Below, in pieces: positions 20,085 to 33,544 of a stretch of DNA of 64,000 bases. Origin of the DNA: Amycolatopsis endophytica (lineage in GTDB: Bacteria; Actinomycetota; Actinomycetes; Mycobacteriales; Pseudonocardiaceae); NCBI RefSeq assembly GCF_013410405.1, contig NZ_JACCFK010000001.1, forward strand, positions 3,720,001-3,784,000. The letters are read 5' to 3'. The translations under genes were made by a program, and so were the position numbers. How positions within the stretch are numbered: the stretch's first letter is position 1; every line of letters begins with the position of its first letter. The notes beneath the pieces were generated by a model. It did no database searches. It had not been told where the DNA came from and worked only from the letters and a program-made list of their open reading frames with translations.

Positions 20085-20638
20085 GGCTCCAGGGGCAGGG
20101 TGCGGCCGAGGATCGCGAACGGGCGCGGGTCACCGGCGAAGTGGTAGTCGCGCAGCGCGTCGACGAACCCCACGCGCCGGTACAGCTTCCACGCCCGGCT
20201 CGGCCCCTCCGGCGTCGACAACAGCACGCGCCGGTTGGGCACGCCATCGAGCAGGCGGCGCAGCAGGTCCTCGCCGATCCCGCGGGCCTGGCTCGCGGGG
20301 CGGACGTGGATCTCGGTCAGTTCGAAGTAGTCGGTGAGCCACTCCTGCGCGAGCTGTTCGCCACCGGAGGACGCCAGCCCGCGCCGCACCTGCTCGTGCC
20401 ACCACTGGCCGGGCGCGCCCCGATAGCCGTACGCGACGCCGAGCATCGTGCCCTCGGCGTCCAGCGCCGCGATGCAGCGCCAGCCCTCCCGCAGCGCATG
20501 GGTGAGCCACATCGGCGCGCGTTGTTCCGCGGTACCCGGTGGGTAGCGCATCGCGTCGACGTAGATCGCGAGCGCTTCCCGCAACCGGGTGCGGAAATCG
20601 TCGGGGGACAGCCGCGCGTAGTGCAGGGCGGTGGTCAC
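20069..20638 (-). CDS. GNAT family N-acetyltransferase
   Basis: A 189-residue acetyltransferase with the acetyl-CoA-binding block LTEIHVRPASQARGIGEDLLRRLLDG (Q-x-x-G-I-G form) and a C-terminal LYRRVGFVDAL strand. Substrate unknown. Its GTG start overlaps the stop of the upstream YbaK gene (GTGA), so the two are translationally coupled on the minus strand. The 3' end overlaps the EamA gene by 16 bp. Confidence 0.88.
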   Translation of the reverse strand: MTTALHYARLSPDDFRTRLREALAIYVDAMRYPPGTAEQRAPMWLTHALREGWRCIAALDAEGTMLGVAYGYRGAPGQWWHEQVRRGLASSGGEQLAQEWLTDYFELTEIHVRPASQARGIGEDLLRRLLDGVPNRRVLLSTPEGPSRAWKLYRRVGFVDALRDYHFAGDPRPFAILGRTLPLEPQVRE

Positions 20639-21135
20639 GACGCCACGTCCGCGGGTTTGCCGCCGGTGACGGCGACGAGGTCGGCGAACGTGGTCGGGAA
20701 GACCGACTTGGCGTGCCCGGCCGCTGCCCACACCGTGTCGTGGGCGCGCAGCGCGGTGTCGACGAGGGTGAGCACCGGCTCCGGGTGCCCGAGCGGGGCG
20801 ACACCGCCGATGGCCTGGCCGGTGTGCTCCCGCACGAACGCCGGGTCGGCCTTCTCGACCGACTCCGCGCCGACGAGTGCCGCGAGCGTGTCCGTGCTGG
20901 CCCGGTGCGCGCCCGAGGTCAGTGCCAGCAGCGGCGCGATCCGGTCGGCGAAGACCGCGCGGAAGACGAGGCTGTTGGCGATCGCGCCCACCTCGACGCC
21001 GAGCGCTTCGGCGGCCAGCGCGGCGGTGCGTGCCTCGCCCGGCAGGATGCGGATGCCGGCAGCGGCTTCGTGGCGGCCCGCCTCGGCGAGCGCGGCAGCG
21101 ACCTTGGCCACCGCCGGATGGTCCAGGCTGCTCAT
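20635..21135 (-). CDS. YbaK/EbsC family aminoacyl-tRNA deacylase
   Basis: A 166-residue single-domain protein of the INS/YbaK superfamily, which hydrolyses mischarged aminoacyl-tRNAs (for example Cys- or Ala-tRNA-Pro) in trans. Visible: VGAIANSLVFRA, the KADPAFVREHTGQAIGGVAPLGHPEP loop forming the active-site pocket, and a C-terminal VWAAAGHAKSVFPTTFADL strand. Which amino acid is removed cannot be told from sequence alone. It is the first gene of a two-gene minus-strand unit with the GNAT gene. Confidence 0.9.
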   Translation of the reverse strand: MSSLDHPAVAKVAAALAEAGRHEAAAGIRILPGEARTAALAAEALGVEVGAIANSLVFRAVFADRIAPLLALTSGAHRASTDTLAALVGAESVEKADPAFVREHTGQAIGGVAPLGHPEPVLTLVDTALRAHDTVWAAAGHAKSVFPTTFADLVAVTGGKPADVAS

Positions 21136-22273: not shown

Positions 22274-22327
22274 TTGAACGAACACGTGTTCGAAGCTACT
22301 CTGGAACACGATCGAACAAGAGTTCGA
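22274..22327 (+). promoter_or_regulatory. LexA-type SOS promoter with two boxes
   Basis: TTGAAC (22274-22279) and TACTCT (22297-22302) are separated by exactly 17 bp, a good promoter. An SOS-like box, ACGAAC-N4-GTTCGA (22278-22293), fills the spacer, and a perfect actinobacterial SOS box, TCGAAC-N4-GTTCGA (22312-22327), covers the predicted start site. The recA promoter in this window carries the same kind of box in the same place. The downstream gene is the HEPN protein at 22429. Confidence 0.8.
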
Positions 22328-22428
22328 CATCCGGTGAGTGCTCGCCGGTCAGGTCATCCGGTGCCGGGGCGGGGGAAGCGCCTCGGCACCGGATGCCGCC
22401 ACCGCACGTTGTCCGCAAGGGAGGGGCA

Positions 22429-22935
22429 ATGTCCATTGCCGTCGCGTCCCGCGCCGAGGAGCAGCAGCCCTCGCTGCCGTTCCCGGTCCGTCCTCCGGCG
22501 GCGCCCGCCGCCACGGCCCTGCTCGCCGACGCCAGGCGGGGCATCGCCGAAGCCCGGCACGCGGCCCAGCCCGCGCCCAGGTTCATCGCGGCCTACCTGG
22601 CGGCGCTCCGCGCGGGTGCCGCGGTGCTCGCCGCCAGCGGTCGCCCGCACCGCGGCCGGGCCCGTCCGGCCAGCGTGTGGGTGCTGCTCGAAGCGGCGGC
22701 GCCCGAGCTGAGCGAGTGGACGGCCTACTTCGCCGCGCACTCGGCCGCGCGGGCCGCGGCCCAGGCAGGCAACACCCGCCGCGTCACCGCGGCCAGGGCC
22801 GACGAGCTGCTGAGCCAGTCCGCGCTGTTCGTCGAGCTCGCGCGTGACTTCGTCCACGGCCGCCCGTCCGGGCAGCCGAGCCGGGTGCGGCAGTGCGACG
22901 CGCCGCCGACCCTGGGGAAGGCGCCACGAAGGTAA
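22429..22935 (+). CDS. SAV_6107-type HEPN domain protein, LexA-controlled
   Basis: A 168-residue, Ala-rich, all-helical protein resembling the SAV_6107 group of HEPN proteins of actinomycetes. The helical core runs from about residue 25 to 150 (TALLADARRGIAEARHA, FIAAYLAALRAGAAVLAAS, VWVLLEAAAPELSEWTAYFAAHSA). A canonical Rx4-6H RNase motif is not evident at the usual place, so RNase activity is uncertain. The ATG follows GGGAGGGG. Two SOS boxes lie about 100 bp upstream, so induction by DNA damage is likely. The stop TAA overlaps the next gene's ATG (TAATG), coupling the two. I recall this family occurring near error-prone polymerase genes, which should be checked. Confidence 0.82.
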   Translation: MSIAVASRAEEQQPSLPFPVRPPAAPAATALLADARRGIAEARHAAQPAPRFIAAYLAALRAGAAVLAASGRPHRGRARPASVWVLLEAAAPELSEWTAYFAAHSAARAAAQAGNTRRVTAARADELLSQSALFVELARDFVHGRPSGQPSRVRQCDAPPTLGKAPRR

Positions 22936-23699
22936 TGGCCGGGCAAGCACTCATCGACCACGGGCGCCTGCTGGACGTGCTGGGCATCGAGGTCGAGCTG
23001 ATGATGTCGACCGCGCTGTCGGCGCCGGCGGACACCCCGGTGCCGACCACGCCCGGTCTCACGATCGGCGAGGTCATCCGCCATGTCGGCGGCGTCTACC
23101 GGGTCGCCACGGGCTGGATGACCGAGGGGCACCGGCCCCGGGGCTGGCAGGAGAACCCGGCGCCCGGCCAGAGCGGCGAGGAGTACCTGCGGGAGGGGCT
23201 GGCGTCGCTGCACCGCGAACTGACCTCGCACGATCCGGCCGAGTACGCGGCGGGCTGGTGGCCCGCGGACCGCACCTACGGGTTCTGGTGCCGCCGCATG
23301 GCGCACGAGACCACCGTGCACCGGATCGACCTCCAGAACGCGGCGAACCGGATCGTCGACGAGGTCGCCGAGGACGTCGCGCTCGACGGCATCGACGAGA
23401 TCCTGGCGCTGTGGTTCGCCCAGCGGCTGCCGATGCTCGGGCTGTCCGGCACGTCGACGGGCACCGTGGGCATCCGCACTGGTGGGCACAACTGGATCGC
23501 CAGGGCCGGTCCCGGCGAGACCATCGCCTGGCACTGCTCGGCGGAGGAGGCCGGCCGGGCCGACGGCCTGGTCACCGGATCGCCGATGGCGGTCTACGAG
23601 TGGCTGTGGGGCCGCCGCGGGCACGACGCCGTGACCTGGCAGCACAGCGACGACGCGATCGGCCAGTTCTGGGCTCTGCTGCGACTGGCGACGAGATAA
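22935..23699 (+). CDS. Mycothiol-dependent maleylpyruvate isomerase-like (DinB-fold) protein
   Basis: A 254-residue protein of the MDMPI/TIGR03083 type: an N-terminal four-helix DinB-fold metal domain and a C-terminal SCP-2-like domain. Candidate metal ligands are His in GEVIRHVGGVYRVATGWM and the HETTVHR pair in CRRMAHETTVHRIDLQNA. The C-terminal half includes GTVGIRTGGHNW and DGLVTGSPMAVYEWLWGRRG. Family members use mycothiol in isomerisation or transferase reactions. Its start overlaps the HEPN stop by 1 nt, so it shares the LexA promoter. DinB itself is damage-inducible in Bacillus, which makes the SOS link notable. Confidence 0.88.
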   Translation: MAGQALIDHGRLLDVLGIEVELMMSTALSAPADTPVPTTPGLTIGEVIRHVGGVYRVATGWMTEGHRPRGWQENPAPGQSGEEYLREGLASLHRELTSHDPAEYAAGWWPADRTYGFWCRRMAHETTVHRIDLQNAANRIVDEVAEDVALDGIDEILALWFAQRLPMLGLSGTSTGTVGIRTGGHNWIARAGPGETIAWHCSAEEAGRADGLVTGSPMAVYEWLWGRRGHDAVTWQHSDDAIGQFWALLRLATR

Positions 23700-23738
23700 T
23701 CCGGGACGTGGGGAAGCGTTGCCGGATATCGTCGCCTC

Positions 23739-24473
23739 ATGACGAGCCGACTGGTCAGCCTCGTGATCGACGCGAACCGCCCGCGGGAGCTCGCGGAGTT
23801 CTGGGCCGCGCTGCTGGACTGGACGATCACGTTCGAGGACCACGAGGAGGTCGACGTCGAGCCGCCCGAGGAGGACGGCAGCGACCTCGAATTCGTCTTC
23901 GGCACGGTGCCCGAGGCCAAGGATCCCGGCCGGAAGAACCGGGTGCACCTCGACCTGCCCAGCACCTCGCTCGAAGACCAGGCCGCGAAGGTGGACCGGG
24001 CCCTGTCCCTGGGCGCGCGCAAGCGTGACATCGGACAGGGCACGGTCCCCTGGGTGGTGCTCGCGGACCCGGAGGGCAACGAGTTCTGCGTGCTCGAACC
24101 CCGGCCCGGCTACACGACGACGGAAGCCGTGGCCGCGATCGTCGTGGACACGCACGACCCGCTCGCGTTGGCCACCTTCTGGGCGGAGGCCGCGGGCTGG
24201 CGGATCGGGAACCAGGAACCGGTGATCGTCGGACTGCGTGCCCCGACCGGCCGCGGTCCGTGGCTGGAGTTCCTGCGCGCCGGGGACACCAAGACGATCA
24301 AGAACCGCCTGCACCTCGACGTGGCACCGTTCGCGGACGGCGACACGGCCGCGGAGTCCGCGCGGTTGTGCGGGCTCGGTGCCCACCGCATCGACATCGG
24401 GCAGCGCGACGTCCCGTGGGAGGTGCTCGCGGACCCGGAGGGCAACGAGTTCTGCGTCCTCTCGCCGCGCTGA
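23739..24473 (+). CDS. VOC family protein with two glyoxalase-like domains
   Basis: A 244-residue protein made of two vicinal-oxygen-chelate units with parallel sequence: each starts with a V-x-D-x-x-x-P-x-x-L-A-x-FW segment (residues about 7-22 and 128-143) and ends in VLADPEGNEFCVL. Such tandem VOC proteins in actinomycetes are often called glyoxalase/bleomycin-resistance-like; catalytic function is unknown. It begins 39 bp after the MDMPI-like gene and may belong to the same damage-inducible transcript, though a separate promoter cannot be excluded. Confidence 0.86.
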   Translation: MTSRLVSLVIDANRPRELAEFWAALLDWTITFEDHEEVDVEPPEEDGSDLEFVFGTVPEAKDPGRKNRVHLDLPSTSLEDQAAKVDRALSLGARKRDIGQGTVPWVVLADPEGNEFCVLEPRPGYTTTEAVAAIVVDTHDPLALATFWAEAAGWRIGNQEPVIVGLRAPTGRGPWLEFLRAGDTKTIKNRLHLDVAPFADGDTAAESARLCGLGAHRIDIGQRDVPWEVLADPEGNEFCVLSPR

Positions 24474-33516: not shown

Positions 33517-33544
33517 TTGCCTCGAACAGGTGTTCGGCTATTGT
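33517..33544 (+). promoter_or_regulatory. recA promoter with LexA box
   Basis: A -35-like TTGCCT (33517-33522) and -10-like TATTGT (33539-33544) are 16 bp apart. The SOS box TCGAAC-N4-GTTCGG (33522-33537) fills the spacer and differs from the consensus TCGAAC-N4-GTTCGA by one base. It is the same layout as the HEPN promoter at 22.3 kb. Confidence 0.82.

Follow-up and report, generated by a model that had tools for sequence, protein, structure and literature searches.

The window analyzed here is a 64,000-nt stretch of the Amycolatopsis endophytica genome, and it contains an operon behind LexA boxes that encodes a HEPN protein and a protein related to mycothiol-dependent maleylpyruvate isomerase (MDMPI). 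The leader RNA of this operon carries a hairpin with the loop GGGGAAG (the G-hairpin), and the leader of the mutasome gene imuA' in the same genome carries a hairpin with the exactly complementary loop CUUCCCC (the C-hairpin). We propose that the operon is a LexA-repressed accessory of the ImuA'-ImuB-DnaE2 mutasome and that its G-loop pairs with the C-segment, in cis or in trans, tuning mutasome translation; we place this reading at a probability of about 0.47. The LexA boxes, both hairpins, their sense strand, the complementarity of the loops and the joint occurrence of HEPN and ImuA' are established by sequence comparison. The features of the operon, in window coordinates, are as follows.

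22274..22302, + strand: sigma-70-type promoter, with the -35 element TTGAAC at 22274-22279, a 17-nt spacer and the -10 element TACTCT at 22297-22302, from reading of the sequence and alignment with 11 relatives

22278..22293: LexA box 1, ACGAACACGTGTTCGA, overlapping the end of the -35 element and the spacer; one mismatch to TCGAACN4GTTCGA, with its position conserved in 9 of 11 named relatives

22312..22327: LexA box 2, TCGAACAAGAGTTCGA, near the predicted start site; pattern match to TCGAACN4GTTCGA with no mismatches

22354..22396, + strand: leader RNA G-hairpin, with a 17-bp stem and the 7-nt loop GGGGAAG at 22372-22378, from the leader alignment and a covariance model

22429..22935, + strand: HEPN_SAV_6107 protein (PF18726), 103.4 bits against a cut-off of 27.2

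22935..23699, + strand: MDMPI_N/TIGR03083-like (DinB-fold) protein, coupled to the HEPN reading frame through TAATG at 22933-22937

23739..24473, + strand: tandem glyoxalase-like (VOC) protein, a variable third gene, 39 bp after the MDMPI reading frame

An earlier note on this DNA had placed two SOS boxes on a TTGAAC-N17-TACTCT promoter, and the sequence check agrees, with one and zero mismatches. Allowing up to two mismatches, the LexA-box pattern matches nine times in the window, compared with a mean of 2.58 and a maximum of 7 in shuffled sequence; with up to one mismatch only three matches are left, namely boxes 1 and 2 of the HEPN operon and the recA box at 33522-33537. Genome-wide, CGAACN4GTTCG is found at 43 sites versus 2 for the control pattern. 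The 11 named relatives (10 Amycolatopsis and 1 Allokutzneria) have both boxes in register in nine cases and one box in two, and the box-to-box distance is 34 bp, or 33 in A. suaedae. The recA promoter had been offered as an internal control with the same box in the same place. The recA LexA box does exist, but it reads TCGAACAGGTGTTCGG, with one mismatch, and its position corresponds to that of box 1 rather than box 2, since the likely -10 element is downstream of it. Behind recA, a recX-like frame begins at about 34728.

Conservation of the boxes extends well beyond the genus. In a family sample of 150 genomes, 137 contain the HEPN gene, and upstream of it, within 1.5-1.7 kb, every one of these has a box with no more than one mismatch (perfect in 130/137); the control pattern occurs there in 0/137. 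At least two boxes are present in only 19 of the 137, and the twin arrangement, from which the earlier note had derived tight repression, is mainly a trait of the own genus. For the wider order, 29 of the best-scoring 30 loci include a box with up to one mismatch, and the remaining locus, L300, is shortened by a contig end. Here and below, sets of 30 loci (L068-L097, L290-L319 and L387-L416) are the top-scoring 30 of each search and not random draws. The Streptomyces-like loci (a guessed label; L028-L034 and L039) have neither a box with up to one mismatch nor a G-hairpin. Corynebacterium glutamicum cg2381 belongs to the LexA regulon and is strongly upregulated with ciprofloxacin while mraZ falls (PMC5055667). 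This gene is the probable HEPN ortholog, judging by the gene order HEPN, DUF3040-like, mraZ that is also seen in locus L064; cg2377 is mraW. Taken together, box conservation and the regulon membership of cg2381 strongly support the LexA control that the earlier note had suggested, and LexA would be expected to bind at the boxes of the HEPN operon.

The G-hairpin, first seen on aligning the leaders, sits between box 2 and the HEPN start. It is the only hairpin in the window (stem of at least 5 bp) with a GGGGAAG loop or its complement, and it is the top match to covariance model R1 in the own genome, with 61.5 bits versus 26.4 for the next. R1 matches in 63 of the 150 family genomes, once each, and comparison of the listings by eye puts all 63 upstream of HEPN. 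Counting by sequence, which partly builds in loop constancy, finds the loop word in 121/137 HEPN leaders, downstream of the box by 20 to 145 nt, and GGGGAAGC in 120/137. Genome G305 has a G-hairpin that escapes this count, and G428 reads GGGGAAAC. Across 31 distinct sequences, 10 of 14 stem pairs vary on both sides, a value matched in 0 of 500 shuffles; the rows of this alignment (A3), one per genus plus the window, were chosen for the stem (at least 12 of 13 pairs) and the loop. In 120 leaders taken without stem selection, the 1560 cells comprise 1261 Watson-Crick and 108 GU pairs versus 23 AC and 168 other combinations. The ratio of 108 GU to 23 AC indicates that the RNA of the sense strand is the conserved structure. 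The G-loop is unpaired at 0.99-1.00 in the predicted fold of the HEPN leader, and the window sequence has no T-run after the hairpin of the kind expected of an intrinsic terminator. A broader model, R2, yields many weaker matches outside the family across the order that have neither the GGGGAAG loop nor a nearby box, with the exception that the matches L354 and L357 do adjoin a LexA box.

HEPN leaders of many other genera contain a second hairpin, with loop CUUCCCC, right after the G-hairpin. Of 121 leaders, 52 have CTTCCCC no more than 60 nt downstream of the G-loop, where shuffling predicts 1.16 and a control word gives 0; a close variant is present in 12 others. By eye, the G/C word pair is also seen in hairpin-like settings in leaders of families f79 and f82.

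In A. endophytica the C-hairpin is found at a different locus. Of the 43 LexA sites in the genome, 3 are in the window, 5 were left out and 35 were examined; among these 35, only the imuA' site is then followed by a C- or G-hairpin. The imuA' leader has a perfect LexA box and then the CUUCCCC hairpin. The encoded ImuA' scores 184.7 bits against NF058630 (cut-off 65), and an ImuB-like frame, named from sequence without a profile, follows. In the best-scoring 30 family imuA' loci, a LexA box is present in 30/30 and the CUUCCCC motif in 28/30. The script totals were 29 boxes and 26 C-words, and L402 and L393 raise these to 30 and 28; the C-word of L393 is 1.2 kb upstream of the match. The two remaining loci read CTCCCC (L409) and CTTCGCC (L415). 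GGGGAAG is found in the leaders of 0 of these 30 loci, and it precedes the imuA' start in 2 of 20 further loci (G296 and G371), by eye as the ribosome-binding sequence. Thirty-four C-hairpins (33 distinct), taken from imuA' loci with the motif near a LexA box, have a 7-nt loop and a stem in which the 165 cells comprise 133 Watson-Crick, 24 GU, 0 AC and 8 other combinations. Twin LexA boxes, 31 bp apart, are also observed at the imuA' promoter of the own genus in 6 of 7 loci (L387-L392, not L393).

The imuA' Shine-Dalgarno sequence, usually GGGGAGG, can itself pair with CUUCCCC. Predicted folds of 26 imuA' leaders give a mean Shine-Dalgarno exposure of 0.08, which becomes 0.40 with the C-loop blocked. 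The mean gain on blocking is 0.325, versus 0.009 for other 7-nt windows; the C-loop is the best window in 19 of the 26 leaders, and 22 of the 26 are predicted to gain more than 0.1.

The link to the mutasome comes from gene content and gene order. Of the 150 family genomes, 132 have both HEPN and ImuA' and 10 have neither, leaving 8 discordant (132/5/3/10). Locus L060, of another family, has the row box-HEPN-imuA'-...-dnaE2, and its divergent YbaK-like and GNAT-like neighbors, named from sequence, are as in the window. Locus L059 reads box-DUF6504-HEPN-dnaE2-like, where the polymerase passes the superfamily cut-off only, and L062 and L065 appear similar by sequence. A shared gene row, LexA boxes and co-occurrence with ImuA' are thus all found, as would be expected of a mutasome accessory. 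The ImuA'-ImuB-DnaE2 mutasome (NF058630, NF004225) resembles the HEPN operon in lying behind LexA boxes, and the two share a common gene row in another family. To our knowledge, HEPN is not counted among the parts of the mutasome. A search of an open library found no paper on both ImuB and HEPN, and the main text of a Streptomyces venezuelae LexA study does not mention HEPN (PMC9380542). In genus g236 (genomes G333, G367, G392, G412 and G429), matches to HEPN, ImuA' and mraW RNA are all absent.

These features suggest how the operon may work. On DNA damage, LexA would leave the one or two boxes and the HEPN operon would be transcribed, giving a message at whose start a rigid hairpin exposes the loop GGGGAAG. 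SOS induction would also produce the separate imuA' message, itself behind LexA boxes, the 5' segment of which would form the CUUCCCC-loop hairpin or fold onto the Shine-Dalgarno sequence and hide the start site. The G-loop would then compete with the Shine-Dalgarno sequence for the C-segment, with perfect pairing set against pairing that includes one GU; its binding would free the imuA' start site and tie mutasome translation to full SOS induction. The contact would join two messages in the own genome and take place within one leader in many other genera. Being both a 7/7 complement of the C-loop and a mimic of the Shine-Dalgarno sequence, the G-loop most likely binds the C-segment. We infer the RNA-RNA contact, its action in trans and its activating direction; repression by the pairing, or binding of both loops by a protein, would also be conceivable. 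In a more specific version, the HEPN-MDMPI leader would be a trans-acting anti-anti-Shine-Dalgarno element that activates the ImuA'-ImuB mRNA and perhaps touches the mraW mRNA, having arisen from a cis pair after an ancestral HEPN-imuA'-imuB-dnaE2 operon was split. We hold this version to be tentative, with the balance of probability tilted against it.

The two hairpins tend to be present or absent together. Genera g237, g238 and g241, which are apart in the HEPN tree (the placement of g241 being weak), have LexA boxes but neither a G-hairpin at HEPN nor a C-hairpin at imuA' in 7/7 genomes. The table of genera, which was entered by hand, reads 16/0/1/3 (p=0.0035, or p=0.012 when g244, of which L429 could not be judged, is counted against the association); the table does not include g221 and g227, for which all genomes examined were HEPN-less and had variant C-loops. 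A hand tally of 50 imuA' leaders gives, where the G-hairpin is present, 30 exact and 5 variant C-motifs with 1 not judged (G341), and, where it is absent, 7 without and 5 with the exact C-motif. The remaining two leaders, which have a variant C-motif and were placed in neither class, belong to the HEPN-less genomes G317 and G324.

Several observations weigh against the proposed pairing. If variant loops are scored as missing, the association by genus weakens to p=0.088. Genus g218 has C-hairpins in both leaders and no G-hairpin (6 HEPN leaders; imuA' 4/4 examined), genome G436 (g214) has kept the imuA' C-motif without a G-hairpin, and HEPN-less genomes can retain the imuA' C-motif as well, exact in G362 and variant in G317 and G324. 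Two HEPN genes of g241 have CTTCCCC near the start, probably as coding sequence. No compensatory change linking the G-loop and C-loop is seen, and since both loops are nearly invariant, the pairing is unproven by covariation. The p value for co-occurrence of HEPN and ImuA', 6.6e-10, is not corrected for kinship. In the predicted folds, 4 of the 26 imuA' leaders gain 0.1 or less in Shine-Dalgarno exposure on blocking the C-loop. In the own imuA' leader, the predicted fold buries the C-loop together with the Shine-Dalgarno sequence (unpaired 0.13), and opening the loop is predicted to cost 9.6 kcal/mol (from -47.5 to -37.9). The 7-bp duplex of G-loop and C-loop has a predicted energy of -11.2 kcal/mol, which would leave invasion barely favorable. 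Finally, the C-loop has another use, since mraW RNA carries the same loop and is present in genomes that have no HEPN gene.

The mraW RNA is one of the known motifs with which the HEPN leader can be compared. In Rfam, the G-hairpin matches mraW RNA (RF01746) on the reverse strand with 28.2 bits (E 0.0002, gathering score 50) over positions 32-72 of the 107-nt model, its apical part. The match falls on the reverse strand because the mraW apical loop, CUUCCCC, is the exact complement of GGGGAAG. With 28.2 bits against 50 and the opposite strand, identification of the HEPN leader as an mraW RNA was rejected, and it was this loop match that led to the present finding. The mraW RNA is an actinobacterial leader hairpin with the same CUUCCCC loop as the imuA' C-hairpin; the HEPN-leader hairpin differs in matching its opposite strand only, in belonging to another gene and in having LexA boxes. 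The motif was listed in 2010 as a probable RNA and probable cis-regulator (PMC2864571), and in C. diphtheriae it is placed upstream of the mraW start site (PMC5784534). The own mraW RNA (L056, 1501-1608) scores 64.2 bits and has the CUUCCCC loop, and a hairpin search found the loop in 43 of 45 mraW loci; it was not found in L143 and L154, where contig ends perhaps shifted the search window. A joint loss of HEPN and mraW RNA was considered and rejected: only 5 of the 13 HEPN-less genomes (those of g236) are without mraW RNA, and 8 retain a match. In genus g2, guessed to be Mycobacterium-like, mraW RNA likewise occurs in genomes without HEPN. As a separate observation, CUUCCCC of the mraW RNA might pair with a G-rich ribosome-binding sequence upstream of mraW, which would be a possible explanation of the Rfam motif.

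Other explanations account for parts of these data. A single protein, such as the non-catalytic HEPN protein, could bind both hairpins, with loop complementarity as a by-product and no contact between the RNAs. Nearly invariant loops and closing pairs are what protein sites would be expected to show, motif-less HEPN proteins have been proposed as RNA binders (PMC3710099), and HEPN and the hairpin share an operon. Such a protein would, however, have to recognize two loops of opposite composition, and the perfect 7-base complementarity would be a coincidence. In addition, two HEPN-less genomes keep the G-hairpin before the MDMPI gene, and g237, g238 and g241 keep HEPN without a G-hairpin and without an imuA' C-hairpin. 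We regard this explanation as unlikely, though it retains a real share of the probability. The G-hairpin might also act in trans on mraW RNA, so that DNA damage would repress or alter the dcw cell-division operon. The reverse-strand Rfam match and the shared CUUCCCC loop fit this idea, as do the position of the HEPN gene near mraZ in three genomes of family f2, the opposite ciprofloxacin responses of mraZ and cg2381 in C. glutamicum (PMC5055667) and the predicted exposure of both the G-loop and the mraW loop. The coupled absence, on the other hand, is seen for the imuA' partner and not for mraW RNA, which keeps its loop in g237 (L140, L141), a genus that lacks the G-hairpin, and persists where there is no HEPN gene at all. 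An action on mraW as the main function therefore strikes us as improbable.

An ordinary LexA stress operon is comparably improbable in our estimation. Here, a HEPN RNase or toxin and a DinB-fold enzyme would be induced together, and the hairpin would merely stabilize the message. The LexA boxes and the HEPN and MDMPI domains agree with this, a strong 5' hairpin could protect mRNA, and HEPN proteins can be toxic even when the motif is lacking (PMC3710099). The active-site motif is nevertheless unconserved, and a stabilizer requires neither a constant loop, which the sequence count of GGGGAAGC in 120/137 leaders indicates, nor a complementary partner. It is very improbable that the hairpins act in cis only, as a switch for the HEPN operon, with the Amycolatopsis G- and C-hairpins as leftovers of a split leader. 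This would explain why both motifs share one leader in 52/121 family leaders and in f79 and f82. A leftover should decay, yet 56 of 57 GGGAAGC leaders without a nearby C-motif read GGGGAAGC (again by sequence, so in part built in), and imuA' C-loops persist in genera whose HEPN leader has no nearby C-motif.

With regard to the proteins, the gene arrangement described earlier was confirmed: the HEPN gene is coupled through TAATG to an MDMPI/TIGR03083 gene, and the tandem VOC gene follows after 39 bp. The own genome has a single PF18726 gene, and the closest named relative by HEPN protein is A. thermalba (86% identity). The MDMPI gene adjoins HEPN in 11/11 named relatives and is downstream in 26/30 family loci, and the VOC gene directly follows the MDMPI gene in some relatives only. 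The suggestion that HEPN is an RNase or toxin was not borne out. The RX4-6H active-site motif is unconserved in an alignment of 55 HEPN proteins, a set that includes one MDMPI-like protein (g201_G397) read from the wrong gene, and a published table, which gives no gene context for SAV_6107, records that this group has no catalytic motif (PMC3710099). The RNase toxin was therefore rejected as an RNase; according to the same source, motif-less HEPN proteins can still be toxic, so the protein may yet be a toxin (PMC3710099). The HEPN protein probably serves the mutasome by binding RNA or protein without catalysis, and not as an RNase toxin. The window protein is a clear member of HEPN-M (SAV_6107), PF18726, for which the present analysis supplies the mutasome, LexA and MDMPI contexts.

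Membership in the mycothiol-dependent maleylpyruvate isomerase family was judged by TIGR03083 and by PF11716 with PF07398. The window protein is a marginal case, with 51.6 bits against 50 for TIGR03083, 56.4 against 24.2 for MDMPI_N and 26.4 against 29.5, below the cut-off, for MDMPI_C. As to the earlier connection of the DinB fold with damage response, the MDMPI gene is kept along with the LexA box and the G-hairpin in two genomes without a HEPN match (L366 = G316 and L365 = G362), so the leader belongs to the operon and not to HEPN alone. Genome G316 is also without an ImuA' match. Viewed as a whole, the earlier picture of a damage-induced stress module stands with respect to LexA control and lacks support with respect to an RNase or toxin role.

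IstR-tisB is an SOS-linked antisense RNA pair, and DsrA-rpoS is a case of a small RNA that frees a Shine-Dalgarno sequence. The proposed system would be like both in that RNA-RNA pairing governs access to the ribosome site, and like IstR-tisB in its LexA link. It would be unlike them in that both partners are leaders of LexA-controlled mRNAs, that one 7-nt loop meets another and that activation is predicted. Control of ribosome access by RNA-RNA pairing is known, and a pair of LexA-controlled leaders whose loops match each other would be a novel form of it. In the usual account, LexA acts on mutagenic polymerases through transcription alone. If the proposal is true, an RNA step would set when error-prone repair proteins are made, messages of the damage response may control one another, and an uncharacterized protein of 137/150 family genomes would join the mutasome. 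The proposal also suggests an idea about the loop of mraW RNA that can be tested.

Two observations concern the surroundings of these elements. Upstream of the operon in the window are YbaK/ProX-like and GNAT-like genes, assigned by eye, at 20635-21135 (- strand) and from 20069 onward (- strand). L360 (G321) has a second LexA-like box near position 1550, TCGAACACATGTTCTA, with a GGGGAAG hairpin after it. Downstream come a GNAT-like frame and a tRNA-like 3' end, both assigned by eye, and a mobile element may here have borrowed the leader design.

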